This document shows, piece by piece, positions 6,701 through 53,541 of a stretch of 64,000 bases of DNA (positions are counted from its first letter, which is position 1; every line of letters starts with the position of its first letter). The DNA is taken from contig OX359190.1 in NCBI GenBank assembly GCA_947172415.1, forward strand, positions 992,001 to 1,056,000. The letters are read 5' to 3'. The translations under genes were made by a program, and so were the position numbers. The notes beneath the pieces are model-generated. The model saw only the letters and a list, made by a program, of their open reading frames with translations. It did no database searches and had not been told where the DNA came from. The DNA comes from Chondrosia reniformis (taxonomy: Eukaryota > Porifera > Demospongiae > Chondrillida > Chondrillidae).

Positions 6701-9700
6701 ACATAAAGTAAATAAAAAACATTTACAAAAATGATGTTAGAAGTAGGAATGGTAGTGTTCACTAATACATCTGCAAAAAGTATCGAAACAAGACACTGAT
6801 TATATGATAAGGCTAATCATACAGAAGTTGCATATATACTGAAATTTAAGTAAATTAACCATACACTTCTGTGTTTGGGCGCACTAACCTTAAGTAGGGA
6901 TGGTGCGCCCAAACACAGAAGTGTATGGTTAATTTACTTAAATTTCAGTATATATGCAACTTCTGTATGATTAGCCTTATCATATAATCAGTGTCTTGTT
7001 TCGATACTTTTTGCAGATGTATTAGTGAACACTACCATTACTACTTCTAACATCATTTTTGTAAATGTTTTTTATTTACTTGTATTCCCCCTTTTTTCTT
7101 CTTAATATTACTAGTTTTAAATTGATTTGAAAGTTTTCTTGGCGAAGATCTCAAAATAACGTCTTAGACAAGAGAAATATGCCGAAAACCACGATCTCTT
7201 AATTAAAAAATGGCGTCCGAGAAGACCACAATTTTCGCTCTTCACAATTAACATGCTTATTGTAGAGCGCATTCAGATTTAGGGCTGTCTATTCCCTAGC
7301 TCCGAAATATTTATGACGATTTATAACTAGTACGTGCCCGCATAAGTTCGCATATTAGCGCTAGTCTATTCAATAAAAGAAGAAGAAGAAGAAGAAGAAA
7401 AAATGAATTTTTGGAAGTGGGTCTAATTCCTAGTTAGCCGCTTTTTGAACGCTATAGAGTAGTCTGATTTCATCAGACTACTATAAAGCGTGTAGAGCGT
7501 CGAAACATGTTTTGGCATTTAGGAAAGCGTGAATTAATCGCTGCAAATAACCGAATATAACCGAAAATCGCTTCGTTGGCGATTTATGAGGTGTTGATTG
7601 CTAATACATTGGATAGGGCGGCCATTTTTTTTTCCGGCCATTCCTACTTAGAGAGTACTACCGTACTCTCTGATATTATTGTCATTGCCTAACTTCACAT
7701 TAATTACTTTTCAACAGTCTACCCACAAAGGGACAGTCTGTGTTTATAAACAAACATTCTTTTGACAATTCAGTCAGTAGGTCAATATTATTGGTGATGC
7801 TTAGCTTCAGGAAAACTAGCAAGAAGCATCTTTAGAGAACAGTCAATTCAGCCAAGTATAATACAGTCAATACCCGACATCTCTTCTAAACATTCACTGA
7901 CACATTCATTTGACTTCTGTGTACCTTTCACTTACTTTGAACAAGACAGACTGTATAATTTAAAAACGTGGCAACTCTCTTCTTTTTAAGAGAACAATAA
8001 AAATTTTCTACAAAAATAGTAAAGATGTAGGGATGGCACAAAAAGCAGAGAAACAAGAAAGGGATGTTACACAGTGAAGCATTAGCTATATATGCATGAA
8101 TCATACAACACCCTTGCTTGTAGGATTCATGCATATATAGCTAATGCTTCACTGTGTAACATCCCTTTCTTGTTTCTCTGCTTTTTGTGCCATCCCTACA
8201 TCTTTACTATTTTTGTAGAAAATTTTTATTGTTCTCTAGTTTCTGTACTTTTTATGGAGCATAAGCTAGGAATTCGTTGTATTTTAAACCACTTTGGTTT
8301 TGCAATCTTCGACTGATTATGACGTCATTAAAATGGCGAATTTATTGAGGTCTTGACTCTTGAGCCATGAAAACTGTCATACTCAATAATAGCGTTATCG
8401 CTCTCGCTTCTACAAAAGAATACAGCTCGGAAAATTTAGAGTAATTTCGATTAAGAAGTAGTCCGAAGGCTTATTTCGTTTTTTAGTTACAGCGGGCGAA
8501 GAAGATGAAGAAGATGAAGAAGAAGAAGATGAAGAAGAAGAAGATGAAAAAGAAGAAAACGAAAATGGGAGATTTCAAAGTTCGTTCGTTTACCAACGAT
8601 ACACGGTCGCTTGCCTTCAAGGCCAATTTATAGCATGTTTGTTCTATATTCAACTCTACATAGTCTCGTTTTGGCGATTTTCAGCCTAATTCGGAATTTC
8701 GCTCCTATACCAATGTATGAGGAAAACGAAACAACCCGTACCATCCCTACATAGAGAGTACTACCGTACTCTCTGATAACAGACAAAAACAACGGCGCCC
8801 CAAAAATTAGGCTAAGACTTATTGAATACTAAAACAAAATGGCCGACTTCACCTTGGGACGCTTCCGGTCCGTGCCTAGCAGTTAACTCTCGTTGTGTTA
8901 GGAAGCAGTTTATTAAACGTGTCTACAACTAACATTTCTGTACTACCAACATCTTATAACTAATCACACGAACGTTCACAGGACGAGAAATTAACATACC
9001 TACGTAGCACGCGATAATAAACAGTTTAACTACAGCGGATAATACTTGAAACGCTTTCCTCTACTTTCTCACTTCAAATGCAAAGAACAAGAAGACTTAA
9101 CAGTCTTCGTTAGTGGAAACAAGTTAACACTTAAATTCGTGAGAGCGTTCGTAGAACACACTCGTATGAGAACATTAAAGCAACACAAGTCTTGTTAACA
9201 TTGACACGCGCTTCGTGTACACTGAGCGCACAAGTTAGGTGACTCTAACGAAGGAAATAAAACCTTCTAATGTTTCTATTTGAAGGAGAAAGTGCACGCG
9301 AAGCTCGCAACGAATGTTAACAAGACTTGTAATACTTAAATGAGTTTACTAACCTTAACTGCAATATCGTACTGTACAGCTCTTGTCTGAAAGTCTCCTA
9401 TTCTTCCTCCTCCAAATGTGAGAAATGTAGTTCCGTTGAGGGAAGCCGTACAAGTGAAGCCATAAGACGTTTCTTCACTAATTCGTGTCCACTTCTTCTT
9501 CTCGAAAATGAAGATTCCTTTTGGACCTACTACGACTGGTAGTGTGCTGTATTGTAATAGTGAACTGCTCCATGGTGCATCCTCGAGCAGTTCCCAGTGA
9601 TGTTCATCATTTGTTGTAAGTGAAGCCATAAAATTCTTCTTATTCATTCTCCAAAAATATCCATTGTAGTCGTAGATGTAAATGTATTCACCACACAATG

Positions 9701-10896
9701 CCATGTGGTGTAGTAATAATGGTTGAGGAAGTTTCAGATTCGACTTTATCCATATTCTTTTGTTAACATCCAGGAATTCAATTGTGTCTGCTCCTCTTCC
9801 TCCAGATACAATTACTAAGTCTCCAATAGCAAGAACACTTGGAAAGGCTCGGGCGGTGTGCATTGGAAGATATAGTACTTTCCATTCTTTGCCTGTCCAC
9901 GTCACTAGATCGTTTGTAGTTCTGCCACGAGTGTCTCTACCTCCTATTAAAGTAAACTGGTTCCCTATGATGGCTGCTCCACTCTCAGAATGAGGAGGTC
10001 GAGGCAGTGTTGACCATTTAGTGTTCTTAATATTGTAAACCTGAACCTGTTCCTCAATGCCTCCATAGACGAATACACTTTGGAGATGTGCAAGTGCTTT
10101 AGCAAAGGATGTTCCACTTAAAATTTTGGGGATATTGGTGGTTTTCAGAAAATGACCTCCTCCAGCTCTGAGGAGGTCACTGCAAAAGATCTAATTGAGA
10201 TAAGAAACATTTACTGATTGAAGCGTGTCTGCTTGGAAACTCTATAAATTAGCACACACGGATATGTAAGTTTTCAGTAGCAGTTTATTACAAGAAACCT
10301 TTGAGTTACAGTCTGTAAATCATGCAGTCTGTTTGTACAAGGTCCAACTTAACAGAATGTAAAGAGTCATTTCAGCGTTTACTGTCTAATAGTCTATTGA
10401 ATCTGAACCTCCTCAACGCGCACCAGTTAAACATTCTGCCACTATATGGACGAGCGGCGTACTTCGCTTTCTAAAGTGTTCCTTAGAAGCCTACGAATTT
10501 CAAAGTTGCATTTCGCTAGCTAGTTTGAGCGAGGTTTTGTATAACTCAACTGTGTCGCAGTATTCTAAACAAAGAGACTTTGGGCAAGGGTCTCTGAAAG
10601 CTAAAGGTGTGACTGTTCTAAAACTCTCGGGTAATATCAGCTTAGGATGACCACTCTTTCAACCTAGCGAGTTGGACGCATATCAAAAATTGAGCTTACA
10701 AGACCTGACTAGATATTGCGCTGAATTGGACTATTTGCTGTAACGAGTTTCATATATACTGGCAGAACATGTAGTTCGCTAAATTAATCTGAACTCATAT
10801 TGACCGGTGAAAGGTTAGCGACTGCGAGTCTATATAGTAACACCCACTTCTACGAGAAACTGAATGAATAAATAAACTCACTTTATCTTCGGACAT
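3246..10896 (-). CDS. KRC1: kelch-Roc/COR GTPase-CARD protein, about 1201 aa
   Basis: Exons in order: 10882-10896 (start ATG, MSEDK), 9354-10190 (kelch), 3872-6160 (Roc-COR), 3246-3710 (CARD, stop). Every junction is GT-AG and phase 0, so the four exons form one open frame. Kelch covers residues 6-284, Roc-COR 285-1047, an acidic linker and CARD 1048-1201. Expected role: a cytosolic sensor in which ligand binding at the propeller controls a GTPase switch that exposes a CARD for homotypic signalling; this is inferred from domains. The start is chosen because MS-D-K is followed by a donor in KRC1-3 (MSKD in KRC4). The kelch/Roc intron is 3.2 kb, enlarged by two insertions absent from paralogues. 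Alternative: two separate genes. Against this, the kelch frame has no stop before its donor and KRC3/KRC4 have no ATG at the Roc exon start. Confidence 0.8.
3872..6160 (-). CDS. KRC1 Roc-COR exon (763 codons)
   Basis: P-loop GGSRVGKTS (protein residues 310-318), switch-like TSTGVLEAPE, G3 DTGGQPSF (502-509) and G4-like LVGTHLS (594-600). G1 and G3 are about 185 residues apart because of a Ser/Thr/Pro- and acid-rich insert (SITPPPP). After the GTPase, KVPKVWFCLQLITSS through WICTDATFLYKEM matches the COR layout, with the small-hydrophobic LNLFHCLGFYVYF core. A 200-residue region with PTGLFHRLAVDI follows. Donor AAT/GTAAGT ends the exon in phase 0. Family: ROCO GTPase. G4 has Ser where Asp is usual in THxD. 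Confidence 0.82.
6703..7673. mobile_element. Insertion 1 in the KRC1 kelch/Roc intron, about 970 bp, hairpin-ended
   Basis: Absent from the KRC2 intron, where CTACACATTGAGTATT runs straight into GTCATTGCCTAA. It starts with a 376-bp inverted repeat (6706-7081), contains a (GAA)n tract near 7378-7400, and ends in a 22-bp palindrome at 7650-7671 (AGAGAGTAC, 4 bp, GTACTCTCT). No protein is encoded, so it looks like a non-autonomous foldback element. It shares its right-end palindrome with the insertion at 7989-8774. Confidence 0.65.
6706..7081. repeat. Long inverted repeat, arms of about 179 bp with an 18-bp spacer
   Basis: Left arm 6706-6884, right arm 6903-7081. The arms are almost perfectly complementary, differing by about one base near GGAATGG/CCATTAC, so they would form a very long hairpin in RNA. 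Diverged single-arm relatives (ACTTCTGT..., ...CTACTTCTAAC) lie downstream of both collagens near 19870-19970 and 46530-46640. Confidence 0.92.
7989..8774. mobile_element. Insertion 2 in the KRC1 intron, about 785 bp, hairpin-ended
   Basis: KRC2, KRC3 and KRC4 have an empty site (TCTTTTT, A-rich, then ACAGACAAAAACAACGG); only KRC1 is interrupted. The insertion opens with inverted arms 7989-8102 and 8124-8237 (114 bp each, perfect as read), carries a GAA/GAT repeat at 8499-8560, and ends with the same 22-bp palindrome (8753-8774) as insertion 1. The motif ATGTAGGGATGG at 8025 is mirrored at 8741-8752. TAA flanks both ends, a possible target-site duplication. Two short reading frames here are the same hairpin read from each arm and are not genes. 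Confidence 0.7.
9186..9329. repeat. Conserved foldback block before the kelch donor
   Basis: CAAGTCTTGTTAACATT at the left is mirrored by AATGTTAACAAGACTTG at the right, with inner partly complementary ACGCGCTTCG / CGCGAAGC. The same 145-bp block sits at the same place in KRC2 (25249-25392), KRC3 (35885-36028) and KRC4 (51808-51951). It may be an old miniature element or an intronic RNA structure. Confidence 0.7.
9354..10190 (-). CDS. KRC1 kelch exon (279 codons), six-bladed propeller
   Basis: Acceptor ...CAATTAG at 10191, donor AAG/GTTAGT at 9353, phase 0 at both ends. Six repeats are visible, with glycine pairs in VFVYGG, LIGG, IVSGG and LTFGG and closing tryptophans in NTKW, GKEW, KRIW, EHHW and KKKW. 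Blade slot residues in order: FA, SE, AF, LL, WS, GF. The loop after IVSGG is short (RGAD) and the blade-4 loop is DY. The propeller is probably the ligand-binding part. Confidence 0.85.
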
Positions 10897-11714: not shown

Positions 11715-13354
11715 TATGCATTATAAGTGAGGATGGTTCTAGAGGTACGTGCCAGCCATTTTCCAGCTTCATCTTACTGGACAACTTTTGATTCTTGGGT
11801 GAGAGAGGTGATCCAGGAAGGCAAGGCAACCCTGGAGCACCAGGTTCAGCAGGAAGTAGTGGTGTGGGTGGATCTGGTGGAGTTGAAGGACCCCAAGTGA
11901 GTTGCATGCATAAGAAGTAATGAACTTTTAAAAAAATTCAATTTCTAGGGTGAAAAAGGTGTGGCTGGTGCCTCAGGTGTCAAGGGAGCATCTGTGAGTG
12001 ATTAGTGTTTTTCATACATATACTTTCTCCATCATTTTAACTGTTATAATAATAGGGCGATGTGGGGGCCCCTGGTGCCAGTGGTGAGCCTGGTCTCCCG
12101 GGTCGACAAGGTACAGATGGTCCCCCGGGTCCACCTGGTCCTCCTGGCAATGTTGGTGCAGAAGGAAAGCAGGGTTCTCCTGGCCGTGATGGTTCACCTG
12201 GTAATCCTGGTGCATTTGGTGAAAATGGTGTGGATGGCAGACCTGGACGTATTGGAGACCAAGGTAAACCTGGTCAGAAAGGAGAAAAGGGACCCATAGG
12301 GTCTCAAGGTGCCAGAGTAAGTGGATTTACATGTCAGACCCAAAAGTGCTATAATTGTTCAAAATTATGATCATTTCAGGGTATTCGAGGATTGACTGGA
12401 TTTAATGGTGCAGTTGGTAAACCAGGAGTTGGTGGTTCACAGGGAGATCGTGGTGAGAATGGACTCCGTGGTGCTCCAGGTGCTATTGTAAGTGAAACCA
12501 GCTAGCATTGTATATATCTAGGTTGTTTAAAAGTTACGTACTATAATTTAGGGAGGAAGGGGAATTAGAGGTTTTGATGGAGAACCTGGTAATCCAGGTG
12601 CTGTTGGAGACCCAGGCAGCAATGGTGAGCATGGTAGCCCTGGTAAACACGGAGATTCTGGCCCTAATGGTCTCTCTGGAATAGCTGGAGCAGCAGTGAG
12701 TTAATTGATGTTATGCATTCAAAAACCTAATAGTCATTCTCCTCGTGAGTGGTCTGATTGAAGCATACTGCATGTTATTGGACTACATTTCATTATCTGT
12801 AGGGTGTGAGTGGTCTTACTGGTGCAACTGGTGCACAAGGTATCAAAGGTGTCAAGGGAGATATAGGTTCTACTGGGGCACAAGGTGATCAAGGAGAAAA
12901 GGTCAGTTAAAAGATCTTACATAGTAGGTAGCATCCTGTTGACTAAAAATATCTCGAGTATGTTTTTTCATCACTCATTTTAATTACATTACTTAGTAAA
13001 ACATCTAATATTGTATACAATTCACTGGCAGGGTATGAGAGGTAACGCTGGAGCTCCTGGAGGTGATGGTGGAACTGGAACTGCTGGTACAAAAGGTAAT
13101 AAGGGAGCAAAGGGTGTCGCTGGATCGGAGGGTTTACAAGGTGCAGCAGTAAGTACAGCATTTATATGAATAATTGTAGTGTTGATCAGAGTACAAATAA
13201 TCATTCTCAGACATCATTTTAGAGGGAATAAACAAAACAAGTTCTAGGCCATGGAGTCTACCATTGTCCTCAGCAGTACCTCATGTAGTATTATCTCCTG
13301 TTATATTAATATGGCAAATGTTAAATTTGCACTTGTTTGAACTGGTGGTGATTC

Positions 13355-13390
<36 letters not shown>

Positions 13391-16300
13391 ACAAACTGAC
13401 TATGTATTGTGTTATAAAACTTTACAACCGATCAATCCAAAAATTAGATAGTGTTAAATTAACTCCTTTGAAGTGTACCATTTTTGGTCTTGCATAATCT
13501 AATCAATGTACGTATACTTTTGTCACTACGTGTGTATGTATGTATATGTTTAGGGTTCCAGAGGACTAGCAGGTGGTCCTGGTATCACAGGATCACAGGG
13601 TCTACCTGGAACAGGTGGAGATCGTGGTCCAACTGGTCCAGCCGGTCCCCAAGGAGCTGATGGATCTACTGGTCTTGCTGGACCACAGGGAATTACTGGT
13701 CCTAAAGGTCAGACTGGAGAACCAGGTCTAGATGGCAAAGATGGCAGACCTGTAAGTTGTACTTATGATTGATAGCTAAGCAACTTGAAAACAAGTCCAG
13801 TTTAATCTGTTACCATGGCTGCATAAGTCAATCCATGTTCATTATGTATATGCAGTATCTTTTATTCAATGGATATATACACACAGACTGTCTATATTTA
13901 TCTTTAAACGTGTCCACAGTGCAGCTTATATATAGCAATGTAACGATTCTATTCTGGTTGATAGTATCCAATTACAATTTGTGTCCTTAATTGCAGGGAG
14001 ATGAGGGTCCAGAAGGTGAAAAGGGAATAAGAGGAGATATTGGTGCAGCGGTAAGATGTCATATATAGAAGTACTGTCTGACTGTCCATTGTATACAGTG
14101 ATATGCATTGTTACAACTGTAGGGTCTGGCTGGAGGTCAAGGTCCTGCTGGAAATCCAGGAGAGAGTGGACCAGAAGGACGTATAGGACTCCAAGGAGCC
14201 CGAGGGGCAAGAGGAGAGCGTGGAGATCCAGGACCTCTAGGAGCCCAAGGCCCTAATGGTACTGATGGTCTAATGGGACTTAAGGGTACTCAGGGGATGC
14301 GTGGTGAGCCAGGAGATGTTGGAGATCCAGGTGATGCTGGAGGTGTGGGCATAGCAGGAAATATTGGTCTCCCTGGCCCACAAGGACCTGCTGTAAGTAT
14401 ATGTGTGTAATGTATTGCTGATCATTTGATAGTATTTGATGACTTGTACAGTGTTGCACACTCTGTAATATATGTAACAAAAAATTTCTCTTTTGACTCA
14501 ATTATTAATTGTCATCAACTAGAGGCTGTTTCCCTTTTACTGCATAGGGGGGTGAGGGTGACCCTGGAGTTATGGGTGTTATGGGTGATCCGGGTGTAAA
14601 TGGAACAGAGGGAGGTCCTGGTCCCAAAGGAGAAAAAGGAGGAAAAGGTGACATGGGTCCAATGGGTACGATAGGCTTCCGTGGCGCTGATGGCTTCCCA
14701 GGTAGTAATGTAAGTATACCTCTATACACTAACTGTGGACTCCACTAATGTACGTATATATACTAATGGTACTAATAGACACTTTAGAGGTCAAATGTTA
14801 ACACTTTTAATCTAAAAGGATTTGTCTCCTCCATTTTAAAATAATTATTTGATATCAACTTTAGGGAGGGATAGGTAGCAGTGGTCCAGCTGGAAGTCTC
14901 GGATTGCCAGGTGATGCTGTGAGTTGATCTGCTTACTGTACACTGGCTGACCAATTGTTCATCCATTCATCCACATGCTACCAATGATTATAGGGTGAAG
15001 ATGGACCTCAGGGTCCTGATGGTAGTCCAGGAAGGGATGGAGTCAACGGTGGGTCTGGACCTCGTGGTGACCCTGGTCCAGGTGGAAGCAATGGAAGACA
15101 GGTATATACATACATAGCTATAGTTGTTGAAATGTGAAAGTGGCCTTTAGAAGTCTCAATGTGTGTGTTTACTGTCCTGTAGGGTCCAACAGGAGGTAGG
15201 GGAGACAGAGGAAATGATGGGGGAGTTGGTGATCCTGGTGATGATGGTGTACCAGGTGGACCTGGTGAGAAAGGTGTTCCCGGTTCACCTGGTACACAAG
15301 GCCTGAGAGGTGGTGAGGGAGGAAGAGGCCTGCAGGGTGCTCGTGGTGCTCCTGGTCTTGATGGTGACCGTGGTGACCAAGGGCCCACTGGAGAGACTGT
15401 AAGTCTTGCAAATAATAGTTGATCACCTAATAAATTGCATACACTATACTTTGATTGTATGCAGATATTAGATGATTAATGAAACATGTTTGTATGGCAA
15501 GGAATATGACGATGTAGTACCTTTAGAAGATTAACAGTTACTTTTCTTAACTAATGATTATATAATATTATTATATATATATATACTGTTTGCTGTGATA
15601 TTCTTAGGGTGAAATGGGTGAACAAGGTCTGACTGGAGTTACTGGCCTAAAAGGATCTCCTGTAAGTTATTTCTCACCACCTATGTTTCCCAATCCATTG
15701 CACTAACAACAAATTCCACCATTCCCTGTGTGCATCATGTTATGTTTATTATACGTACGACCTGTATTTACTGTTTTTGATCTCATGAGTTGCTAAAATG
15801 AGCTGAGAAGTCCGCCCCACAGGCAGGCTCCTTATCTCACACACTTCATTCGGTTTAAAGAACAATTGAACTAACAATGGAGGGCTCAAAAAGCACCAAA
15901 GGTCTTATGACACTCCACAGATGTCCCTAAAGGAGGTTTTAGATTGATCGTGTGCAAACTGAATAAGTTTTAGGACAAACAAACAGAATCCTTGAATTAT
16001 AAAACTTTATTTCTTCTTAAAGGGTCAAGATGGGAGTGATGGATATAATGGAAGAAATGGAGACAAGGGTCCTGGTGTGAGTTATTATGGCAACATGTGA
16101 CTGTCACGTGATTTTTATGTGATAGATGTGATGTAGCTCGTATTATATATTTTTGTGTGAATTTTAGGGTATGGTTGGAAATCCTGGGCCCCAGGGTAGA
16201 GCAGGTCCTCCTGGTCCAAATGTAAGCCCTTTTTTAAAACCTGCACCAAATGTAAACCTGCACCAAATGTATAGTTGTTGAGCTACATGGCCAACCAGTG

Positions 16301-19300
16301 TAGTATGCTGTGCCTATCATATGTATCATACGGTGTACCTCCATTGCTAGGGCCCTATTGGTCCAACTGGTGGTCCTGGTGAACGTGGAGCTGATGGAGA
16401 ATCCGGAACTGGTGGTTCATCCGGACCAAGTGGAGCAAGAGGTCAGAAGGGTGACCGTGGCAACCGTGGAAGGGATGGTATTCGTGGAACACGTGGTAAC
16501 AGGGGTGCAAAGGGTGATCCAGGATTCAGAGGCCAAAGAGGTCCAGATGGTATCCCGGGTAACCAAGGAACCATTGGCTCGCCAGGTCCTCAAGGCAGAC
16601 CAGGAGACACTGGTGCAAGAGGTCCTCCTGGACCACCAGGTCCATCTGGTCCACCTGGAGACAGTGGTACACCTGTAAGCATTAAAGATGGCATTTTATT
16701 TGCTACCAATCATGTTACCATGGTAAGTTCCTCTTTAGGGTTTGATAGGTATCCATGGCCAGCGTGGACCAGCTGGTCGTGATGGAGACAAGGGAGATAC
16801 CGGTGATGCAGGTAACCCTGGTCTACCTGGTCCAGCTGGTGTCTGTCTTGGTTGCCGGGCATTGATCCAGCCAAACAAGATCCACCCATACGGAGGCGGT
16901 CAAGGTGGAGAAGACACTCAGCCTGACACTTCATCAGCAGACTTGGTCTTCTTTGAGGTGGAGCAACTCTGCAATGGAACACAAGATCTACCTTGCACCA
17001 CCTGCAAAGAGCTCTTCCTCAACTATCCCAATACAAGAGATGGTGAGCCTCTCTAACCAAGTGTTGTACGTACTTGTTGTGTGACCTTTATGGACAAATG
17101 CAGTATAGATGGGATGTTCTCACTGATAGTGCGATTGTATATAGTGCAAAGTGGTGAAATATTTCCCCAATAATCACACCATGAGGCTAAGAAAGTATAT
17201 GCAAATATAACAGACTGAAACACCAACTTCCTAGACTCAGTTCTTTGGGAAGGTATATAAGGTTTTGAATGATGACACAATTGTAACTTTTCTTCCTATT
17301 CCACTGGGTAAGCATATCTTGTTAGTGTGTACCAATCATGGTTCTATTCGAACCTCCTCTTCTGTTGCAAGCTTACAAGAGTTTTAAATTAGCTGGGTAG
17401 TTGGATTGTTTTGTCTCATGTCATACTCTTCACTTCCATACGCCTCCAAAGTATGTGCAAACTGGTATAGGAAAACTATATACATGTGCAAAAATGTATT
17501 TAAACCTTGCAAGTTACAAATATATGTATTATTATTTGTATACCTGTCCAATGTATATATCTTGATCCATACGTGTATTAAATGGTGTGCATGTATACCT
17601 CCTGTCTGTATGTAGGGGTATACTGGATGGATCCAAATGATGGATCAAAGAGGGATGCCACCCAAGTGTTCTGCTGGAGAGCAGATACTATGAAGAAACA
17701 GGAAGTCGTTGCCACCTGTGTTTCTCCATTACAGACAGAATATGTGAGCCTCCCATTATCTCTTTTTGTCCATGCCTGTACATACAAGGATACAAATAAG
17801 GGGTGACTAGGGGGAGCAGAAGACCAAAGGGAAGATTCCTGTATCCTAGTTCAAGACTCTCACTATAATTCCCAATAGGCCCTTTACTGTAGTGAATGGA
17901 GGTAATAGTTATTATTATGTGGAAAATGGTGTTTTAATCACTCGTATGAGTAGGATTTCATGCGGATTTCTCTATTTAGTTCCCCCAACACAATGGATTC
18001 AGCACAACTTATCAAGTTACAGATGAAAGCCAATTTTGGGCATTAGCCTCCGTTTCTGAGGGAGCATTCCAACACTGGACTTTACCTGAAGGTTGGGATA
18101 TGACAGAAAGTGTGAGAGTTACGTTTAATGATGAAACCGTGGCCCACCTCAGAGACGTATGCAATGGAGTAAGTATACATACATAAGCAACACATTATAT
18201 TGGAATACAATCTTTATGTAGTACAATAAATAAATATATTATACTGTCGGGAAAGACATTATTACAAAATAGCTTTAAAATAGCACCGAGTAGAGATATA
18301 GTTTAATAGTATATTATACATTTAATGTTTACCAATGAAAGGAAACCAATAGTAATTTAAATACAAAGCAACCTGGTATATAGTGTATACCGGAATATGT
18401 AGGAAATATCAGATGACATTGATGATGTCTAAATTTTTAAAATGTGTTTTTGTAGTGAGTATATTAAAATTGAATATTAAATGACATTTATGACCGCAAC
18501 ATTAAAATATCAGTACATGCGGATAGATTTCTGAGAATAAAGAGATTTTACTGATGAATTTGTTGACAATTCTCTGTATTCACAAGTAGTACACCTTACT
18601 ATAGCTATCCATTTATACATGAATTGGTTGTACTCGTTCTATTAAGGTCTGTAACCAGGCAACCTTACAACTAGTTAAACCTCTTATATCAGCTGTATGT
18701 ATCATCTATACAGTAATATCAATAAAGTGATAGGGAGATTATTTGTTGTGATCATGATGAGATATAAAGATTATTGAGCAATAGCATTAGATCTTTGGAA
18801 TAGAACATTTCAACCCGTATAGGTCTTAATCAGCAATAGAACCTTTATATCTCATTAATGGATTTAAGTTGTGTGTATATGTTGAGACATTTGTGGATTT
18901 TTTTTATTTTTTTTGCAATTAACGAACAACATATACATGCTACAGAGAGAAAGTTATTACATCATAGTAAATGGGAAAATTAAGTTTTTATGTATAGTCA
19001 ATAAAAGCCATGCAAGCATAGTTACAATAGTTAGATTGAAGGCAGGACTCATGACCTGCAGTCATTATTGGCAAGTGTAAATGAGGAGTTTGAATTTGTG
19101 TATTTGTGGATTTACACCAATTAGTACACCAATTATTAAGACATTATATGTGGATTCAAATTAAAACATTATGTGGATTCATATCTTTTAACTTGACCTT
19201 GCTTCCATTCCTTTTAGAACACCTGCTATTATGAGACCAGAATGGCCTCATCTCTGCCAGTCCATGTCTTCCATAGTGCACAGAGCAGTGCCAGTTTGAC

Positions 19301-38341: not shown

Positions 38342-41300
38342 TATGCATTATAAGTGAGGATGGTTCTAGGGGTCCCCCTGGTCCTCCTGGAGCAAATGGC
38401 TTGCAAGGGCAAAGAGGAGAGAAAGGTCCAGTTGTAAGTAAATTTACCCTCAGTTTGAATCACTCTTTAAAAGTGTAAACTTCCTCTGTCAGGGTGATCC
38501 TGGATCAAAAGGAAAAGACGGAGAACCAGGCAAGCCTGGTGAACCTGGTCCAACTGGCGATTCAGGTCCCAGTGGTCCAGCTGGAGCTCCTGTAAGGATA
38601 CAACATAGTGAGAAACTAGGTTAGATGTGATGGAATGATTATTCCATTAATTAGGGTCTCCCTGGAGAAACTGGTTTGGAAGGTGACCCGGGTGCACGTG
38701 GTCCTGATGGAACCAATGGTAACCCAGGGCGAAGAGGTGAACTAGGTACCCAGGGACCTTCAGGCAAAGATGGTATTCCTGGTGTCCGGAGGGGTGGGCC
38801 CTAAGGGTGAGAGAGGTGATCCAGGAAGGCAAGGTAACCCTGGAGCACCAGGTTCATCAGGAAGTAGTGGTGTGGGTGGATCTGGTGGAGTTGAAGGACC
38901 CCAAGTGAGTTGCATGCATAAGAAGTAATAAACTTTTACAAAAATTCAATTTCTAGGGTGAAAAAGGTGTGGCTGGTGCCTCAGGTGTCAAGGGAGCATC
39001 TGTGAGTGATTAGTGTTTTTCATACATATACTTTCTCCATCATTTTAACTGTTGTTATAATAATAGGGCGATGTGGGGGACCCTGGTGCCAGTGGTGAGC
39101 CCGGTCTCCCGGGTCAACAAGGTACAGATGGTCCCCCGGGTCCACCTGGTCCTCCTGGCAATGTTGGTGCAGAAGGAAAGCAGGGTTCTCCTAGCCGTGA
39201 TGGTTCACCTGGTAATCCTGGTGCATTTGGTGAAAATGGTGTGGATGGCAGACCTGGACGTATTGGAGACCAAGGTAAACCTGGTCAGAAAGGAGAAAAG
39301 GGACCCATAGGGTCTCAAGGTGCCAGAGTAAGTGAATTTACATGTCAGAACCAAAAGTGCTATAATTGTTCAAAATTATGATCATTTCAGGGTATTCGAG
39401 GATTGACTGGATTTAATGGTGCAGTTGGTAAACCAGGAGTTGGTGGTTCACAGGGAGATCGTGGTGAGAATGGACTCCGTGGTGCTCCAGGTGCTATTGT
39501 AAGTGAAACCAGCTAGCATTGTATATATCTAGGTTGTTTAAAAGTTACGTACTATAATTTAGGGAGGAAGGGGAGTTAGAGGTTTTGATGGAGAACCTGG
39601 TAATCCAGGTGCTGTTGTAGACCCAGGCAGCAATGGTGAGCATGGTAGCCCTGGTAAACACAGGGATTCTGGCCCTAATGGTCTCTCTGGAATAGCTGGA
39701 GCAGCAGTGAATTAATTGATATTATACATTCAAAAACGTGATAGTCATTCTCCTCGTGAGTGGTCTGATTGAAGCATACTGCATGTTAGTGGACTACATT
39801 TCATTATCTGTAGGGTGTGAGTGGTCTTACTGGTGCAACTGGTGCACAAGGTGCCAAAGGTGTCAAGGGAGATATAGGTTCTACTGGGGCACAAGGTGAT
39901 CAAGGAGAAAAGGTCAGTTAAAAGATCTTACATAGTAGGTAGCATCCTGTTGACTAAAAATATCTCGAGTATGTTTTTCCATCACTCATTTTAATTACAT
40001 TACTTAGTAAAACGTCTAATATTGTATACAATTCACTGGCAGGGTATGAGAGGTAACGTTGGAGCTCCTGGAGGTGATGGTGGAACTGGAACTGCTGGTA
40101 CTGAAGGTAATAAGGGAGCAAAGGGTGTCGCTGGATCGGAGGGTTTACAAGGTGCAGCAGTAAGTACAGCATTTATATGAATAATTGTAGTGTTGATCAG
40201 AGTACAAATAATCATTCTCAGACATCATTTTAGAGGGAATAAACAAAACAAGTTCTAGGCCATGGAGTCTACCATTGTCCTCAGCAGTACCTCATGTAGT
40301 ATTATCTCCTGTTATATTAATATGGCTAATGTTAAATTTGCACTTGTTTGAACTGGTGGTGATTCAACTATATATATATATATATATATATCAGAACAAA
40401 CTGACTATGTATTGTGTTATAAAACTTTACAACCGATCAATCAAAAAATTAGATAGTGTTAAATTAACTCCTTGAAGTGTACCATTTTTGGTCTTGCATA
40501 ATCTAATCAATGTACGTATACTTTTGTCACTACGTGTGTATGTATGTATATGTTTAGGGTTCCAGAGGACTAGCAGGTGGTCCTGGTATCACAGGATCAC
40601 AGGGTCTACCTGGAACAGGTGGAGATCGTGGTCCAACTGGTCCAGCCGGTCCCCAAGGAGCTGATGGATCTACTGGTCTTGCTGGACCACAGGGAATTAC
40701 TGGTCCTAAAGGTCAGACTGGAGAACCAGGTCTAGATGGCAAAGATGGCAGACCTGTAAGTTGTACTTATGATTGATAGCTAAGCAACTTGAAAACAAGT
40801 CCAGTTTAATCTGTTACCATGGCTGCATAAGTCAATCCATGTTCATTATGTATATGCAGTATCTTTTATTCAATGGATATATACACACAGACTGTCTATA
40901 TTTATCTTTAAACGTGTCCACAATGCAGCTTATATATAGCAATGTGACGATTCTATTCTGGTTGATAGTATCCAATTACAATTTGTGTCCTTAATTGCAG
41001 GGAGATGAGGGTCCAGAAGGTGAAAAGGGAATAAGAGGAGATATTGGTGCAGCGGTAAGATGTCATATATAGAAGTACTGTCTGACTGTCCATTGTATAC
41101 AGTGATATGCATTGCTACAACTGTAGGGTCTGGCTGGAGGTCAAGGTCCTGCTGGAAATCCAGGAGAGACTGGACCAGAAGGACGTATAGGACTCCAAGG
41201 AGCCCGAGGGGCAAGAGGAGGGCGTGGAGATCCAGGACCTCTAGGAGCCCAAGGCCCTAATGGTACTGATGGTCTAATGGGACTTAAGGGTACTCAGGGG

Positions 41301-44300
41301 ATGCGTGGTGAGCCAGGAGATGTTGGAGATCCAGGTGATGCTGGAGGTGTGGGCATAGCAGGAAATATTGGTCTCCCTGGCCCACAAGGACCTGCTGTAA
41401 GTATATGTGTGGAATGTATTGCTGATCATTTGATAGTATTTGATGACTTGTACAGTGTTGCACACTCTGTAATATATGTAACAAAAAATTTCTCTTTTGA
41501 CTCAATTATTGTCATCAACTAGAGGCTGTTTCCCTTTTACTGCATAGGGGGGTGAGGGTGGACCTGGTTTACCTGGAGGTATGGGTGATACGGGTGTAAA
41601 TGGAACAAACGGAGATCCTGGTCCCGATGGAGAAAAAGGAGAAAAAGGTGACATGGGTCCAATGGGTACGATAGGCTTCCGTGGCGCTGATGGCTTCCCA
41701 GGTAGTAATGTAAGTATACCTCTATACACTAACTGTGGACTCCACTAATGTACGTATATATACTAATGGTACTAATAGACACTTTAGAGGTCAAATGTTA
41801 AGACTTTTAATCTAAAAGGATTTGTCTCCTCCATTTTAAAATAATTATTTGATATCAACTTTAGGGAGGGATAGGTAGCAGTGGTCCAGCTGGAAGTCTC
41901 GGATTGCCAGGTGATGCTGTGAGTTGATCTGCTTACTGTACACTGGCTGACCAATTGTTCATCCATTCATCCACATGCTACCAATGATTATAGGGTGAAG
42001 ATGGACCTCAGGGTCCTGATGGTAGTCCAGGAAGGGATGGAGTCAACGGTGGGTCTGGACCTCGTGGTGACCCTGGTCCAGGTGGAAGCAATGGAAGACA
42101 GGTATATACATACATAGCTATAGTTGTTGAAATGTGAAAGTGGCCTTTAGAAGTCTCAATGTGTGTGTTTACTGTCCTGTAGGGTCCAACAGGAGGTAGG
42201 GGAGACAGAGGAAATGATGGGGGAGTTGGTGATCCTGGTGATGATGGTGTACCAGGTGGACCTGGTGAGAAAGGTGTTCCCGGTTCACCTGGTTCACAAG
42301 GCCTGAGAGGTGGTGAGGGAGGAAGAGGCCTGCAGGGTGCTCGTGGTGCTTCCGGTCGTGATGGTGACCGTGGTGACCAAGGGCCCACTGGAGAGACTGT
42401 AAGTCTTGCAAATAATAGTTGATCACCTAATAAATTGCATACACTATACTTTGATTGTATGCAGATATTAGATGATTAATGAAACATGTTTGTATGGCAA
42501 GGAATATGACGATGTAGTACCTTTAGAAGATTAACAGTTACTTTTCTAAACTAATGATTATATAATATTATTATATATATATACTGTTTGCTGTGATATT
42601 CTTAGGGTGAAATGGGTGAACAAGGTCTGACTGGAGTTACTGGCCTAAAAGGATCTCCTGTAAGTTATTTCTCACCACCTATGTTGCCCAATCCATTGCA
42701 CTAACAACACAGTCCACCATTCCCTGTGTGCATCATGTTATGTTTATTATACGTACGACCTGTATTTACTGTTTTTGATCTCATGAGTTGCTAAAATGAG
42801 CTGAGAAGTCCGCCCCACAGGCAGGCTCCTTATCTCACACACTTCATTCGGTTTAAAGAACAGTTGAACTAACAATGGAGGGCTCAAAAAGCACCAAAGG
42901 TCTTATGACACTCCACAGATGTCCCTAAAGGAGGTTTTAGATTGATCGTGTGCAAACTGAATAAGTTTTAGGACAAACAAACAGAGTCCTTGAATTATAA
43001 AACTTTATTTCTTCTTAAAGGGTCCAGATGGGAGTGATGGATATAATGGAAGAAATGGAGACAAGGGTCCTGGTGTGAGTTACTATGGCAACATGTGACT
43101 GTCACGTGATTTTTATGTGATAGGTGTGATGTAGCTCGTATTATATATTTTTGTGTGAATTTTAGGGTATGGTTGGAAATCCTGGGCCCCAGGGTAGAGC
43201 AGGTCCTCCTGGTCCAAATGTAAGCCCTTTTTTAAAACCTGCACCAAATGTAAACCTGCACCAAATGTATAGTTGTTGAGCTACATGGCCAACCAGTGTA
43301 GTATGCTGTGCCTATCATATGTATCATACGGTGTACCTCCATTGCTAGGGCCCTATTGGTCCAACTGGTGGTCCTGGTGAACGTGGAGCTGATGGAGAAT
43401 CCGGAACTGGTGGTTCATCTGGACCAAGTGGAGCAAGAGGTCAGAAGGGTGACCGTGGCAACCGTGGAAGGGATGGTATTCGTGGAACACGTGGTAACAG
43501 GGGTGCAAAGGGTGATACAGGATTCAGAGGCCAAAGAGGTCCAGATGGTATCCCGGGTAACCAAGGAACCATTGGCTCGCCAGGTCCTCAAGGCAGACCA
43601 GGAGACACTGGTGCAAGAGGTCCTCCTGGACCACCAGGTCCATCTGGTCCACCTGGAGACAGTGGTCCACCTGTAAGCATTAAAGATGGCATTTTATTTG
43701 CTACCAATCATGTTACCATGGTAAGTTCCTCTTTAGGGTTTGATAGGTATCCATGGCCAGCGTGGACCAGCTGGTCGTGATGGAGACAAGGGAGATACCG
43801 GTGATGCAGGTAGCCCTGGTCTACCTGGTCCAGCTGGTGTCTGTCTTGGTTGCCGGGCATTGATCCAGCCAAACAAAATCCACCCATACGGAGGCGGTCA
43901 AGGTGGAGAAGACACTCAGCCTGACACTTCATCAGCAGACTTGGTCTTCTTTGAGGTGGAGCAACTCTGCAATGGAACACAAGATCTACCTTGCACCACC
44001 TGCAAAGAGCTCTTCCTCAACTATCCCAATACAAGAGATGGTGAGCCTCTCTAACCAAGTGTTGTACGTACTTGTTGTGTGACCTTTATGGACAAATGCG
44101 GTATAGATGGGATGTTCTCACTGATAGTGCGATTGTATATAGTGCAAAGTGGTGAAATATTTCCCCAATAATCACACCATGAGGCTAAGAAAGTATATGC
44201 AAATATAACAGACTGAAACACCAACTTCCTAGACTCAGTTCTTTGGGAAGGTATATAAGGTTTTGAATGATGACACAATTGTAACTTTTCTTCCTATTCC

Positions 44301-47665: not shown

Positions 47666-50600
47666 CTGGAACATCTACACAAATGAATTTACAACAATCA
47701 TTACATCATCATGAGGCAGTTAACTGATATAATCTGTTTCACATTTTAGTGGTACAGTGAATATGCACTCACCATCACACTCTCCTGAGTTGTTAGATGG
47801 TGTTGGCTGTCTAACAATTTCAGGTCCTCCAGTACAGGTAGACTGGTCTTTATAGAGAAGGAACTGGTCTCCATCAAATTTCACTTTACCAGCTACGCTC
47901 AACTATACAGAAGAAGATATAAAAATCAATAAATTACTTGTGTCCAAATAATAACAATAATAACATATTATATAGCGTCGGTAGCAGCAACATTAGAATG
48001 TAAAATATACAGTCAATAATTGCTACATTCGTGATAAGGGACTATTTCGTTGAATACATAATATTATGCAAACTTACATTGGTGTTGCTGTCCTGTTCCT
48101 TAGCAACCCAAACAGACTCTCTTGGAGTTAGTCCAGTCATCTTGTTCAGTCTGGTACACAGACCCTTTCTCTGGTTGCCGACTTCAAATCGCAGAAGATG
48201 CAAACTGGATCCCTTACAATTCTGGTGACTGCAAATGACCCCGTCCTCTAGAGTGGCTTTCTCTTCAAGAAACTCTGCACCAAATACTACCTCACTCACG
48301 TAACAAATGCGCTCGTACATCTCCCTTCTGATGTGCCTGCAGAGCTCAGACAAGGACGGCTCTGTGTTTGGAAAGTCCTCAGGAACCAACAGTTGAAGTT
48401 GAATCAGGTCTTCCTTTTGGGAAAGAGCAATGTGGGCATTTTCTTGTGTGAAAATGAACTGTCTACTGTCAGACTGCTTGTGGTAGTATCTCCACTGCTT
48501 TCGTCTCAACTGCAATGGCCTTACTTCCTCCTCATTTAAAACCTGTCTGCCACTTGCAATATCCACAGCCAGTCTGTGGAATAGACCAGTCGGTACACAG
48601 CTGTACCTCTGAAATTCACCTGAATGGAATGAGAAAGTGAATCCCAAAGTGGCCACAGATGCTTCGGGTAGGTGGATCTGCCTCTCAGGAAGGACTGCTG
48701 GAATGAAGTAGTATGTCTCCTTCTCCCTAACTTTGGCTGCAATACCGACATTTACTAGGACCTCCAGGAGCCATCTTGTTGGGATATCAGCATCAATGCC
48801 TAGCTGTTGGAACAAGGCCTCAGAAACAACTTCAGAAATCGTGCCTTTTTCAATGAATTTGCGTAGCTCTGGACTTGAAGATTCACTTGGGCCATACTGG
48901 ACTGATAGCACTTTGGACATTTCCTTGTACAGAAAGGTTGCATCTGTACAGATCCATTGCTCTTTGTACTCACTCAGGTCAAAGTACACATAGAACCCAA
49001 GGCAATGAAACAGGTTCAGCAGTGCAAGGAGCTGTCCATCAGCATCTACAGCTTGGATAAATTTGCATTGGATGCAGAACTTTTTCAGCTCTGTGAACTT
49101 CCACATCTTCTTTTTCACGCTAGATGTGATTACTTGCAGGCAGTACCAAGCTTTGGGGACTTTCAGTGTTAATCGATTCTTGGCATCTGAAAGTAGAGAA
49201 CGAAGAACATTTACAGCTTTACGAGTGTGCTCCTTCAGTTTGCTGTCTCCCTGTAGCTGACTGTCCACTACAAAGTAGCTACCAGCACCTTTGTAGGCAA
49301 CCTCTTTTGGGGGGGAAACCCTGTTGCTGGCATATGGCTTGTTGTCCATTTCTTCTAGAACCTTCTCGTTGTCATCCATTAGAGCTCTCTTAGCTTCAGG
49401 ATCTTCAGGAAGAAGGGAAAGGTGAGTGCCAACAAGGAAAATGCGCAATTGGGGCTCAGTGGCAACATTGAATGCTTCCAACTGCCGCTTGCTCTTCATG
49501 GACATTGTGTAGGCAGCTGTAATGGACTCCTTCATCAATTCCCAGGTTGAACGGCTGTTGGCTCTCTTCTCTTCAGTGATTCCATCTTGACAGTAAGCAT
49601 TGATGTACGGATCTGTCAACCTCTCTGAAGCTTTAAAGACGTGCAGAAAGTTGCAGGGAAAGTCCAGTAGGAGTGGTAGGACATTCTGAAAGGAGGGCTG
49701 GCCTCCTGTGTCCAGGAGGTAAATGAACGTACATTCCTTCTCATCAGAAGTGGCTCCAGTAGGAACACTGTGCTTCAGTAAGAATCTCTCCCTGGCCTGG
49801 TGTAGTAACAGTAAAGGATCCTGGTGTTCTGGGGAAGGACGAGATTTGCTGGGAAGGGCTTGTGTGGCAGCAGTCAGAGTTGGATTGGGAGAGACATCAG
49901 ACTGCACTGTTGTTGACTTTCTTTGAAACAGCTTTTTGACTTTGTCCCACAAAGTCAATACTCTTGTGTTACCTGCTGCTGTAGCTTGTCGAGGCGAGTA
50001 TTCTGTGATGTGTGGAGTGTTGCTGGGAAAGGTCTTTGTCTTCTCCATATCAATTTGGGAAATAAGCTCACCTAATCTGTCATCATCCAAAACTTCCCAA
50101 GAAGACCCAATGGCAATGCCTTGTGCAATGGTGGCCACTTCAGGAGCTTCCAGCACTCCAGTGCTAGTTTTGTCTTCTCTTGCTGTGTTGTGGAGCAGGT
50201 AGTGCTTCAGTGAGGTCTTACCAACACGCGAGCCTCCTGTGAGGAAACAGCAGATAATGTTCACTTCAACTGAACCATGTTCATCTATGGCCTGTTTATA
50301 CCATTTAGGATGCCCCTGCAGGTAAACCACAGAGAAGGAACTTATTATACTACAGGTTTATACATTTTCCATGAAAGTATGTCATACATTTATGGTACCA
50401 GTCAATAAAAACTGAACATTTTACAGGTTCTGACGGTTGGCAATACTTCCAACTGAACGGCTTTACCTGTTGCTCTACTAACGTGTTGACAAAAGGTATT
50501 TGACACATACGTACGTATAATTCAAGAAGTGTTACAATCGTTCGGTAGTGTAAAAATATCACTAACTTAAACCACTACGTATAAACATTCCTCACTTTAA

Positions 50601-53541
50601 ACAACTTGACGTTGACAGACGGGTAAAACCGTTCCAAGATTAGAGCAGGTTTATTGAACAGTTTACGAACAGGTCAACACTGGGACGGGTACGGGCGTTG
50701 ACTGTTCAGTTTTTACTGACTGGTAACGTACGTACATATACCAACTTTTATCATATAGCACAAACAGACAACAAAACAGCTACCTACGTATGTATGTAAA
50801 TGTACATATGACATAGTCTCGTATGATAATACTTTCTCCAAATCAATGTATAACTGGTTAATAAAGCTAATTAAAATGGCCACAGGACCACAAGCATTAC
50901 AACCATTTCCATACTTTAACGCGTGAGCGGATCCCCAAAATCGTATCTATTTGTCCAATCAAGTACGTACGTACACATATCTGCAAACTGATATTACAAT
51001 TAGCTGACTGTGTATATGGCCAGAATGTGTACATTCTCCCAGTTAATTAGATAATTGATATGAATACTATTCTGAGTGCCATTTATTATTGTCATTGCCT
51101 AACTTCACATTAATTACTTTTCAATAGTTTACCCACAAAGGGACAGTCTGTGTTTATAAACAAACACTCTTTTGACAATTCAGTCAGTAGGTCAATATTA
51201 TTGGTGATGCTTAGCTTTAGGAAAACTAGCAAGAAGTATCTTTAGAGAACAGTCAATTCAGCCAAGTATAATACACTTAATACCCGACATCTCTTCTAAA
51301 CATTCACTGACACCTTCATTTGACTTCTGTTTACCTTTCATTTACTTTGAACAAGACAAATTGTATAATTTAAAAACGTGGCAACTCTCTTCTTTTTTAA
51401 TAACAGACAAAAACAACGGCGCCCAAAAATTAGGCTACAACTTGTTGAATACTAAAACAAAATGGCCGACTTCGCCTTGGGAAGCTTCCGTGCCTAGAAG
51501 TTAACTCTCGTTGTGTTAGGAAGCAGTTTATTAAACGTGTCTACAACTAACATTTCTGTACTACCAACATCTTATAACTAATCACACGAACGTTCACAGG
51601 ACGAGAAATTAACATACGTAAGTATGTAGCACGCGATAATAAACAGTTTAACTACAGCGGATAATACTTGAAACACATTCCTCTACTTTCTCACTTCAAA
51701 TGCAAAGAACAAGAAGACTTAACAGTCTTTGTTAGTGGAAACAAGTTAACACTTAAATTCGTGAGAGCGTTCGTAGAACACACTCGTACGAGAACATTAG
51801 AGCAACACAAGTCTTGTTAACATTGACACGCGCTTCGTGTACACTGAGCGCACAAGTTAGGTGACTCTAACGAAGGAAATAAAACCTTCTAATGTTTCTA
51901 TTTGAAGGAGAAAGTGTACGCGAAGCTCGCAACGAATGTTAACAAGACTTGTAATACTTACATAAGTTTACTAACCTTAACTGCAATATCGTACTGTACA
52001 GCTCTTGTCTGATGTTCTCCTACTCTTCCTTCTCTTCCTCCGAATGTGAGAAACGTAGTTCCGTTGAGGGAAGCCGTACAAGTGAAGTCATAAGACGTTT
52101 CTTCGCTAATTCGTGTCCACTTCTTCTTCTCGAAAATGAAGATTCCTTTTGAACCTACTATGACTGGTAGTGTGCTGTATTGTAATAGTGAACTGTTCCA
52201 TGGTGCATACTCGAGCTCTTCCCAGTGATGTTCATCATTTGTTGTAAGTGAAGCCATAAAATTCTTCTCATTCATTCTCAAAAAATATCCATTCAAGTGG
52301 TAGATGTAAATGTATTCACCACACAATGCCATGTGGTGTCGTAATAATGGTTCAGGAAGTTTCAGATTCGACTGTATCCATATTCTTTTGTTAACATCAA
52401 GGAATTCAATTGTGTCTACTGCTTCGCCATCTGCTCCTTCTCCTCCAGAGACAATTACTAAGTCTCCAATAGCAAGAACACCTGGCCAGGATCGGGCGGT
52501 GTGCATTGGAGGATATAGTACTTTCCATTCTTTGCCTGTCCACGTCACTAGATCGTTTGTAGGAATGTGACGAGTGTCTCTACCTCCTATTGAAGTAAAC
52601 TGGTTTCCTATGATGGCTGCTCCACTCTCAAAATGAGGAGATCGAGGTAGCGTTGCCCATTTAGTGTTCTTAACATTGTAAACCTGAACCTGTTCCTCAA
52701 TGCCACCATAGACGAATACACTTGGAAGATGTACAAGTGCTTTAGAAAAGGATGTTGTAGTTAACGTTTTCGGGATATCGGTGGTTTTCAGAAAATGACC
52801 TCCAGCTTTGAGGAGGTCACTGCGAAAGATCTAATTGAGATAAGAAACATTTACTGATTGAAGCGTGTCTGCTTGGAAACTCTCTATAAATTAGCACACA
52901 CGGATATGTAAGTTTTCAGTAGCAGTTTATTACAAGAAACCTTTGAGTTACAGTCTGTAAATCATGCAGTCTGTTTGTACAAAGTCCAACTTAACAGAAT
53001 GTAAAGAGTCATTTCAGCGTTTACTGTCTAATAGTCTATTAAATCTGAACCTCCTCAACGCGCACCAGTTAAACATTCTGCCACTATATGGACGAGCGGC
53101 GTACTTCGCTTTCTAAAGTGTTCCTTAGAAGCCTACGAATTTCAAAGTTGCATTTCGCTAGCTAGTTTGAGCGAGGTTTTGCATAACCCAACTCTGTCGC
53201 AGTATTCTAAACAAAGAGACTTTGGGCAAGGGTCTCTGAAAGCTAAAGGTGTGACTGTTAGAGAATTCTCGGGTAATACCACTATTTCAATCTGACGAGT
53301 TGGACGCATTTCAAAGACTGAACTAGTTTCTATTATCCGCTACAAGACCTGACTAGATATTTCCTGCGCTGAATGGTACTATTTGCTGTAACGAGTTTCA
53401 TATATACTGGCAGGACATGTAGTTTGCTAAATTAAACTGAACTCATTTTGACCGGTGAAAGGTTAGCGACTGTGAGTCTATATAGTAACGCCCACTTCTA
53501 CGAGAAACTGAATGAATGAATTAACTCACATCTTTGGACAT
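47352..53541 (-). CDS. KRC4: kelch-Roc/COR GTPase-CARD protein, about 1182 aa
   Basis: Exons: 53530-53541 (MSKD), 51976-52830 (kelch), 48078-50315 (Roc-COR), 47773-47902 (linker), 47352-47665 (CARD). Junctions are phase 0 except the linker/CARD intron, phase 1. Kelch residues 5-289, Roc-COR 290-1035, linker to about 1079, CARD to 1182. Roc-COR is nearly KRC3. The CARD is the most divergent of the set and a relic of a KRC2-type CARD remains downstream, so the signalling end has been exchanged. The first exon is one codon shorter than in the others. Sensor role inferred from domains. Confidence 0.8.
47773..47902 (-). CDS. KRC4 linker exon
   Basis: LSVAGKVKFDGDQFLLYKDQ, STCTGGPEIV, NSGECD; donor GATG/GTGAGT. 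Same exon structure as KRC2. Confidence 0.75.
48078..50315 (-). CDS. KRC4 Roc-COR exon (746 codons)
   Basis: Close to KRC3 throughout, including the LTLWDKVKKLFQRKS insert and the RKQWRYYHKQSD region. Same GGSRVGKTS, DTGGQPSF and LVGTHLS. Local changes such as ALMDDNEKVLEEMDNKPYASN against ALLVHNEK in KRC3. Confidence 0.82.
51808..51951. repeat. Foldback block, KRC4 copy
   Basis: Homologue of 9186-9329 with intact terminal pairing. Confidence 0.65.
51976..52830 (-). CDS. KRC4 kelch exon (285 codons)
   Basis: Blade slot residues: FS, FE, SW, LR, WN, DF. Loop after IVSGG is EGADGEAVD, the blade-4 loop is HL, and the last loop is REGRVGEHQ. The framework between slots is almost unchanged from KRC1-3. 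Confidence 0.85.

Follow-up and report, generated by a model that had tools for sequence, protein, structure and literature searches.

Do neighbouring copies of a duplicated kelch gene in a sponge differ throughout their length, or mainly in the residues with which they might touch a ligand? The question is raised by a 64,000-nucleotide stretch of contig OX359190.1 of the kidney sponge Chondrosia reniformis (hereafter the window, whose positions are used throughout), which carries four kelch copies, K1 to K4, on its minus strand. Their kelch exons lie at 9354-10190 (K1, open reading frame (ORF) 9336-10190), 25417-26292 (K2, ORF 25399-26292), 36069-36923 (K3, ORF 36051-36923) and 51976-52830 (K4, ORF 51958-52830). 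A preliminary description, made from the letters alone, had picked out one two-residue slot in each of the six kelch blades as hypervariable and had seen in this the signature of a diversifying recognition receptor; its exon coordinates and all of its slot residues were reproduced here. As set out below, the four copies probably belong to a large tandem germline family of Kelch-ROCO-CARD receptors, cytosolic according to the gene model, with a diversifying ligand face and exchanged exons.

From blade 1 to blade 6, the slots read FA, SE, AF, LL, WS and GF in K1 (10101-10106, 9984-9989, 9843-9848, 9711-9716, 9567-9572 and 9456-9461), SA, YY, SS, SD, RR and DF in K2 (26203-26208, 26086-26091, 25945-25950, 25807-25812, 25633-25638 and 25522-25527), DA, SH, SR, SY, VF and HG in K3 (36837-36842, 36720-36725, 36579-36584, 36432-36437, 36285-36290 and 36174-36179) and FS, FE, SW, LR, WN and DF in K4 (52744-52749, 52627-52632, 52486-52491, 52339-52344, 52195-52200 and 52084-52089). 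All 12 slot codons vary in amino acid among the four copies and none shows a synonymous variant, just as had been claimed. That the exons are otherwise almost identical was an overstatement: the slots do stand out, but 49 of the 264 ungapped codons outside them also vary, some loops differ in length, and further hypervariable positions follow directly after the GG pairs. The codons flanking the slots, two per side, had likewise been called invariant, which holds for 22 of 24, the exceptions being an amino-acid change at codon 117 in K1 and a synonymous one at codon 215 in K2.

With the K3 exon as query, 137 matches were obtained across the whole assembly, 135 of 222 candidates having been scored; a second candidate list was scored for 58 of 211, which makes all family sizes lower bounds. 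We read 110 loci in addition to K2 from the window. Group A comprises at least 38 intact close copies (C2, 0.77-1.51 and 8.18-8.29 Mb) and group B at least 51 more distant intact copies (C2, 1.70-3.99 Mb, and C5), giving at least 89 intact related copies, in arrays; the rest were five intermediate loci, seven from an array on C7 and nine from an array on C14 (7 of 8 and 9 of 13 listed matches were fetched, respectively) and one locus with a stop. Removal of L041 and L043 as near-copies of L040 left a non-redundant group A of 36 sequences with a mean pairwise identity of 83%; L037 and L038 were also dropped for the test of slot independence (n=34). L042, which has a stop codon, was set aside together with matches that were split, partial or stop-bearing, and the five members of group D were aligned and excluded from the counts.

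The preliminary description would have lost its footing if further paralogues had differed in the slots no more often than elsewhere; in both groups, slot differences proved far commoner. In group A, the slots occupy the top four of 270 columns in variability and supply 6 of the top 12 (P 1.5e-6), and mean entropy is 2.18 bits in the slots vs 0.36 elsewhere (P 8e-9). The corresponding values in group B, in which the variable position of blade 1 lies one residue earlier, are 2.05 and 0.54 bits. Individual slot positions are unequally variable, with ranks of 1-56 among the 270 columns of group A and 2-99 among the 269 of group B. The proportion of nonsynonymous differences (pN) is 0.450 in the slots of group A and 0.417 in those of group B; shifting all six slots by a single codon left no more than 0.297 and 0.278, respectively, larger shifts gave at most 0.175, and the maximum of the scan lay at zero shift in both. 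In 5000 draws, six pairs of neighbouring codons picked at random never reached the slot pN of either group. Nearly every copy carries its own slot string (35 distinct strings in 36 copies of group A, 49 in 51 of group B).

Where, then, do the variable residues lie? An AlphaFold2 model of K1, built from a four-sequence alignment (mean predicted local distance difference test score (pLDDT) 68.8, predicted template modelling score 0.74, pLDDT below 50 at residues 1-28 and 253-279), forms a propeller, and in every blade the slot ends one or two residues ahead of strand A; some strand boundaries, those of strand D in blade 4 among them, were set by hand. The repeated kelch motif and the six-bladed fold are both present, and fold matches of the model include NS1-BP, KLHL20-DAPK1, KLHL3-WNK4 and Keap1-Neh2. 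The slots thus fall in the loops between strands D and A (DA loops), which by strand topology share a face with the BC loops; slots modelled outside one face would have refuted the preliminary description, and this was not the case, although around blades 1 and 6, at its two ends, the model is of low confidence. Counting residues back from the GG pair, we take the blade 2 slot to correspond to Keap1 N414 and R415. In the portions of the literature drawn on here, the substrate pocket of kelch proteins is formed by DA and BC loops, the KLHL20 peptide contacting six of six DA and five of six BC loops (PMC4668279, PMC6720452), and for Keap1 a table in PMC10146909 assigns N414 and R415 to a DA loop, R380 and N382 to a BC loop.

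Diversity is indeed concentrated in this presumed ligand face, but it is not confined to the slots, the BC loops varying as well. Mean entropy in group A is 1.03 in BC and 0.90 in DA loops, compared with 0.35 in AB loops, 0.29 in CD loops and 0.19-0.32 in strands; in group B the values are 1.32, 1.04, 0.49, 0.54 and 0.34-0.51. Of the sites with an entropy of at least 1.9, 18 of 22 (group A) and 17 of 21 (group B) are in DA or BC loops. AB loops have a single length in all six blades (36/36 and 51/51 sequences), and BC loops have several lengths in every blade except blade 5. These patterns, read from aligned sequences, support a diversifying family whose variable part would be the ligand face of the kelch propeller.

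Such a pattern could also arise if the slots were simply exposed loop positions that tolerate change. Pairwise pN/pS, where pS is the proportion of synonymous differences, was obtained by the Nei-Gojobori method (NG86) and reached 2.25 in the slots of group A and 1.59 in those of group B, 1.73 and 1.46 in BC loops, and 3.52 and 1.02 in the other DA codons, compared with 0.57 and 0.60 in AB and CD loops taken together and 0.56 and 0.52 in strands. Codon models on fixed trees put slot omega well above 1 (11.2 in group A, 6.4 in group B) and that of all remaining codons close to 1 (1.02 and 0.98), values that are indicative only because the trees ignore recombination. Relaxed constraint or drift would fit the loop position of the slots and the pooled non-slot omega of about 1, yet slot omega is far above 1, AB and CD loops and strands keep the low pN/pS given above, and the most variable slot positions have a strongly non-random composition in which T and I are nearly absent; we consider this explanation very improbable.

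Equally improbable, in our view, is a mutational mechanism targeted at the slots with selection in a secondary role. It would account for the raised slot pS (0.20 vs 0.09 exon-wide in group A, 0.26 vs 0.145 in group B) and for the slot pairs of group B that encode the same residue with different codons (13.5% vs 8.4% elsewhere), but slot pS can be inflated by multi-step codon paths, pS is low in the other DA codons (0.021 and 0.112), same-residue slot pairs of group A mostly share their codon (3.6% differ vs 5.8% elsewhere) and the newest duplicates retain their slots. Regional hypermutation was set aside because of the low pS of the other DA codons. In the same four window genes, Roc-COR pN/pS was 0.27-0.43 compared with 1.14-1.53 for kelch, in six of six pairs, and the Roc-COR part of K1-K4 is under purifying selection.

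Between the K1/K2 and K3/K4 types, pS is around 0.33-0.34 in Roc-COR and 0.06-0.07 in the kelch exons of the same pairs, a disparity that probably reflects exchange or homogenisation of kelch exons between genes whose backbones have diverged. A home-made test resembling the pairwise homoplasy index (PHI) found recombination in group A (0/300 permutations at or below the observed value). Within that group, no pair of slots was associated (15/15 within permutations, 34 sequences), and slot distance was not predicted by scaffold distance (r -0.05). Among the listed closest pairs, at most 2.5% divergent outside the slots, the two members of a pair share 10-12 of 12 slot residues in both groups (0-1 of 12 differ in five group A pairs, 0-2 of 12 in six group B pairs); in the next nine listed group A pairs, 4.2-5.0% divergent, 5-11 of 12 differ. 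On these comparisons, slot turnover is fast on the evolutionary scale, though not within the newest duplications.

The stability of the newest copies would also fit a different explanation, in which the paralogues are dedicated sensors or adaptors, each fixed on a different endogenous or chemical ligand, in the manner of KLHL proteins or chemoreceptors, their slots having diverged after duplication and then settled, with no nonself repertoire. The DA and BC loops of KLHL proteins vary between members and are conserved within each, according to the part of PMC10146909 consulted, and BTB-kelch tandem paralogues of the sponge genome itself diverge in their slots. The tandem kelch genes at C12:6.02-6.05 Mb and C13:4.51-4.56 Mb are 84-98% identical and differ in the slots, and BTB and BACK were detected in the two of them that were scanned (L008 and L005). 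Joint slot entropy of C12 and C13 is 1.52 vs 0.33 (six slot columns, eight sequences, L126 and L128 left out), and the separate arrays give 0.43 vs 0.11 and 0.41 vs 0.19; the C4 loci L129 and L130 lie outside this alignment. As a negative control, these genes were rejected on account of the same slot tendency, leaving no clean control. Set against dedicated sensors are the repertoire-like features of the family, namely 89 intact copies in arrays, no detected slot association in group A, omega above 1 and a CARD-like output, together with the extensive slot differences of group A pairs at 4.2-5.0% divergence, and we regard that explanation as unlikely.

 The C14 family, 31-33% identical to K3, repeats the pattern, its top eight variable columns being by eye all slots or post-GG loops (nine copies), and no CARD or Roc-COR was recognised by eye in the 7.4 kb downstream of a C14 kelch exon. 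Variation in the C7 array (seven copies) is smaller and touches the slots too; in a C7 gene, a CARD-like ORF (E 4.8e-5, 23.7 bits, just under the cut-off of 23.9) comes after the kelch exon, with no Roc-COR recognised by eye between the two.

What would such a propeller be attached to? The predicted gene order is micro-exon, kelch, Roc-COR and CARD-like exon. In the 30 group A loci with flanks, the kelch ORF always comes directly after AG and ends in AAG before a GT donor (GTTAGT in 28, GTTAAT and GTTATC in one each); a candidate ATG micro-exon of 3-6 residues (MSNDK, MSKDK, MSAIDK and others) with a GTGAGT donor lies 623-781 nucleotides upstream in 25 of them, its phase 0 being by construction since the search demanded whole codons. 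That of K3 (MSNDK, then GTGAGT) is at 37532-37546 on the minus strand, and those of K1, K2 and K4 start 706, 713 and 711 nucleotides upstream of their own kelch exons. The later junctions were read in K3 alone, where the Roc-COR exon runs from cag|GGG to AAT|GTAAGT and the CARD exon from tag|TTG to the stop, all in phase 0. Of 58 Roc-COR exons listed, 55 are preceded at a distance of 0.6-6.4 kb by a kelch exon in the same orientation; conversely, a Roc-COR exon occurs within 6 kb downstream of 37 of 39 group A kelch exons (counting the stop-bearing copy on C13) and within 8 kb downstream of at least 18 of 51 in group B.

The Roc-COR exon ORFs of the window, all on the minus strand, are at 3836-6211 (K1, with P-loop GGSRVGKT, DTGGQ and COR-A), 20845-23265 (K2), 32169-34487 (K3, whose AAT|GTAAGT donor is close to the 3' end) and 48042-50357 (K4). 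P-loop and DTGGQ are present in all four, and a scan at E up to 10 placed Roc (E 0.0032-0.014) before COR-A (E 8e-5 to 2e-3) in the correct order in each, all below cut-off; K2, with Roc at E 0.0032 and COR-A at E 0.0013, gave no match at E 0.001. CARD-like exons were located on the minus strand at 3246-3710 (K1), at 31570-32034 with a stop at the end (K3), and at 63289-63756, the last belonging to the next upstream copy, whose kelch exon is outside the window (C2:1059632-1060501). The two scanned, those of K1 and K3, matched the CARD profile at E 0.0042 and 0.025, below cut-off, and residues 56-151 of the modelled CARD exon are helical, the best 50 Foldseek rows being mostly CARDs (probability at most 0.97, E at least 0.2). 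No NACHT or LRR was found in the four Roc-COR and two CARD exons (E up to 10) or in the four kelch exons (E 0.001), HMMER filters being able to hide very weak ones. The profile scan of ORFs, which excluded upstream DNA, found no BTB, whereas applied to two KLHL-type genes of the sponge it picks up both BTB and BACK; BACK was likewise not found in the gene model. In many C2 paralogues the CARD exon is split in two, residues 1-45 being conserved (mostly 74-89% identical) and the CARD portion diverged (around 34-63%), from which the output module may be exchangeable too.

The reading as a Kelch-ROCO-CARD receptor family rests on data for the variation, its position, the selection signal, the order of the exons and the signs of exchange in group A. 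The kelch propeller would act as sensor, the Roc-COR GTPase as switch and the C-terminal CARD as output. Scaffold and Roc-COR are conserved, the two-residue slots and post-GG loops on one face are apparently diversified by selection, and kelch exons, whole or in part, have probably passed between genes. The face of each gene would bind a different ligand, most likely a protein or peptide from a microbe, a parasite or another individual of the species; binding would release the Roc-COR switch and let CARDs nucleate an assembly for signalling or cell death. What we infer, then, is ligand binding, a nucleotide-driven switch, signalling through CARDs and a part in immunity. The variable face suggests a recognition repertoire, whose role may be microbe defence, allorecognition or the reading of many internal ligands. 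The preliminary view of a diversifying receptor is accordingly upheld as to slot excess and a single face, and extended in that variation covers DA and BC loops, the word recognition being an interpretation. More tentatively, in a proposal that we hold possible and somewhat doubtful, the repertoire would be germline-encoded, combinatorial and intracellular, with kelch as an antibody-like variable domain and slots and BC loops on one face as complementarity-determining elements, reassorted among some ninety loci through exchange of kelch exons and coupled to a ROCO GTPase and a CARD.

Several observations weigh against the receptor-family reading. Recombination, which the trees ignore, can inflate omega; a free MG run in IQ-TREE on the group A slots ended at omega 49 with a likelihood worse than that of the grid; and slot pN/pS is no higher than given above because slot pS is also high. 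The PHI-like test was negative in group B (171/300 permutations at or below the observed value), where 5 of 15 slot pairs are associated and scaffold and slot distances correlate (r 0.27), and the independence test in group A had low power, with 34 sequences and up to 30 alleles per slot. In each group, four sites of high entropy fall in neither DA nor BC loops, and the propeller model was built from four sequences, with a mean pLDDT of 68.8 that drops below 50 at its ends. The window Roc, COR-A and CARD matches are all under Pfam cut-offs and the CARD fold matches have E of at least 0.2. Finally, given the similar trend in tandem BTB-kelch genes, duplicated kelch substrate receptors of any kind may show such a pattern.

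That sponges recognise their own kind and handle symbionts has long been known, with few candidates for the receptors involved. Since the variable residues are already marked, the recognition question is testable by choosing slot variants and asking for their ligands. If the more tentative, combinatorial proposal is true, the family would be a further sponge receptor class beside NLRs and surface receptors, possibly for allorecognition. Kelch-bearing ROCO proteins, which we take to be those of Dictyostelium, are one point of comparison. They share a kelch motif among the domains flanking Roc-COR, in the sections of PMC6320773 used, and differ in forming a kinase-bearing group, with no occurrence of CARD in that paper. 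By analogy, the family would work like fungal HNWD and brown-algal LRR-ROCO receptors while being a member of neither. HNWD of Podospora anserina (het-D/E/R) also joins an NTPase receptor to a beta-propeller sensor, two codon pairs per repeat being positively selected and modelled on the top face, analogous to the face described here, with concerted evolution of paralogues (PMC2873952, in part). HNWD is, however, fungal, with WD40 and a STAND NTPase in place of kelch and a Roc-COR-like part; its hypervariability lies between repeat units exchanged within and between genes, and nonself recognition, presumed here, is shown there. The brown-algal LRR-ROCO candidate immune receptors share a ROCO switch, shuffled sensor exons and selected sites on a presumed binding surface (PMC11378527, in the passages covered), but have an LRR sensor with one exon per repeat, and 'kelch' does not occur in that paper.

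Among animals, Trichoplax, an early-branching one, has ROCO proteins combining ROC-COR with CARD; these number at least 17 genes, 'kelch' does not appear in PMC4104024 and diversification is undescribed in the part of it used. KLHL proteins and Keap1 share the kelch fold and the DA/BC ligand face but carry BTB/BACK, and their loops are conserved within each KLHL (PMC10146909, in part). Animal NLRs, such as those of Dysidea avara, likewise form large sponge families with a sensor, an NTPase switch and CARD/Death-type domains (PMC12909245, sections used), but have NACHT and LRR, not found here, and the words kelch and Roco are absent from that paper. For two further sponges, a single 'kelch motif containing gene' apiece is listed as changed after exposure to microbial patterns, with no architecture stated (PMC6208332, in part). 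No kelch-ROCO-CARD family or Chondrosia kelch diversity was described in the literature searched (titles, abstract openings, open-licence papers and best-ranked results of longer lists), which is not proof of absence. The comparison would suggest that fungi, algae and an animal have converged on diversified repeat sensors coupled to nucleotide-driven switches.

The receptor genes are interleaved with two duplicated collagen-like genes on the opposite, plus strand (around 12056-16846 and 38655-43844), which contain runs of 12-36 Gly-X-Y triplets. A silicatein-like active-site pattern, tried as a sponge marker, had 0 matches and was uninformative. Neither of two near-identical ORFs of 324 residues on the minus strand (27904-28878 and 54536-55510) matched any Pfam profile at E up to 10; by eye they have a hydrophobic stretch and a long Ser/Pro-rich tail, and they have been duplicated along with the array.
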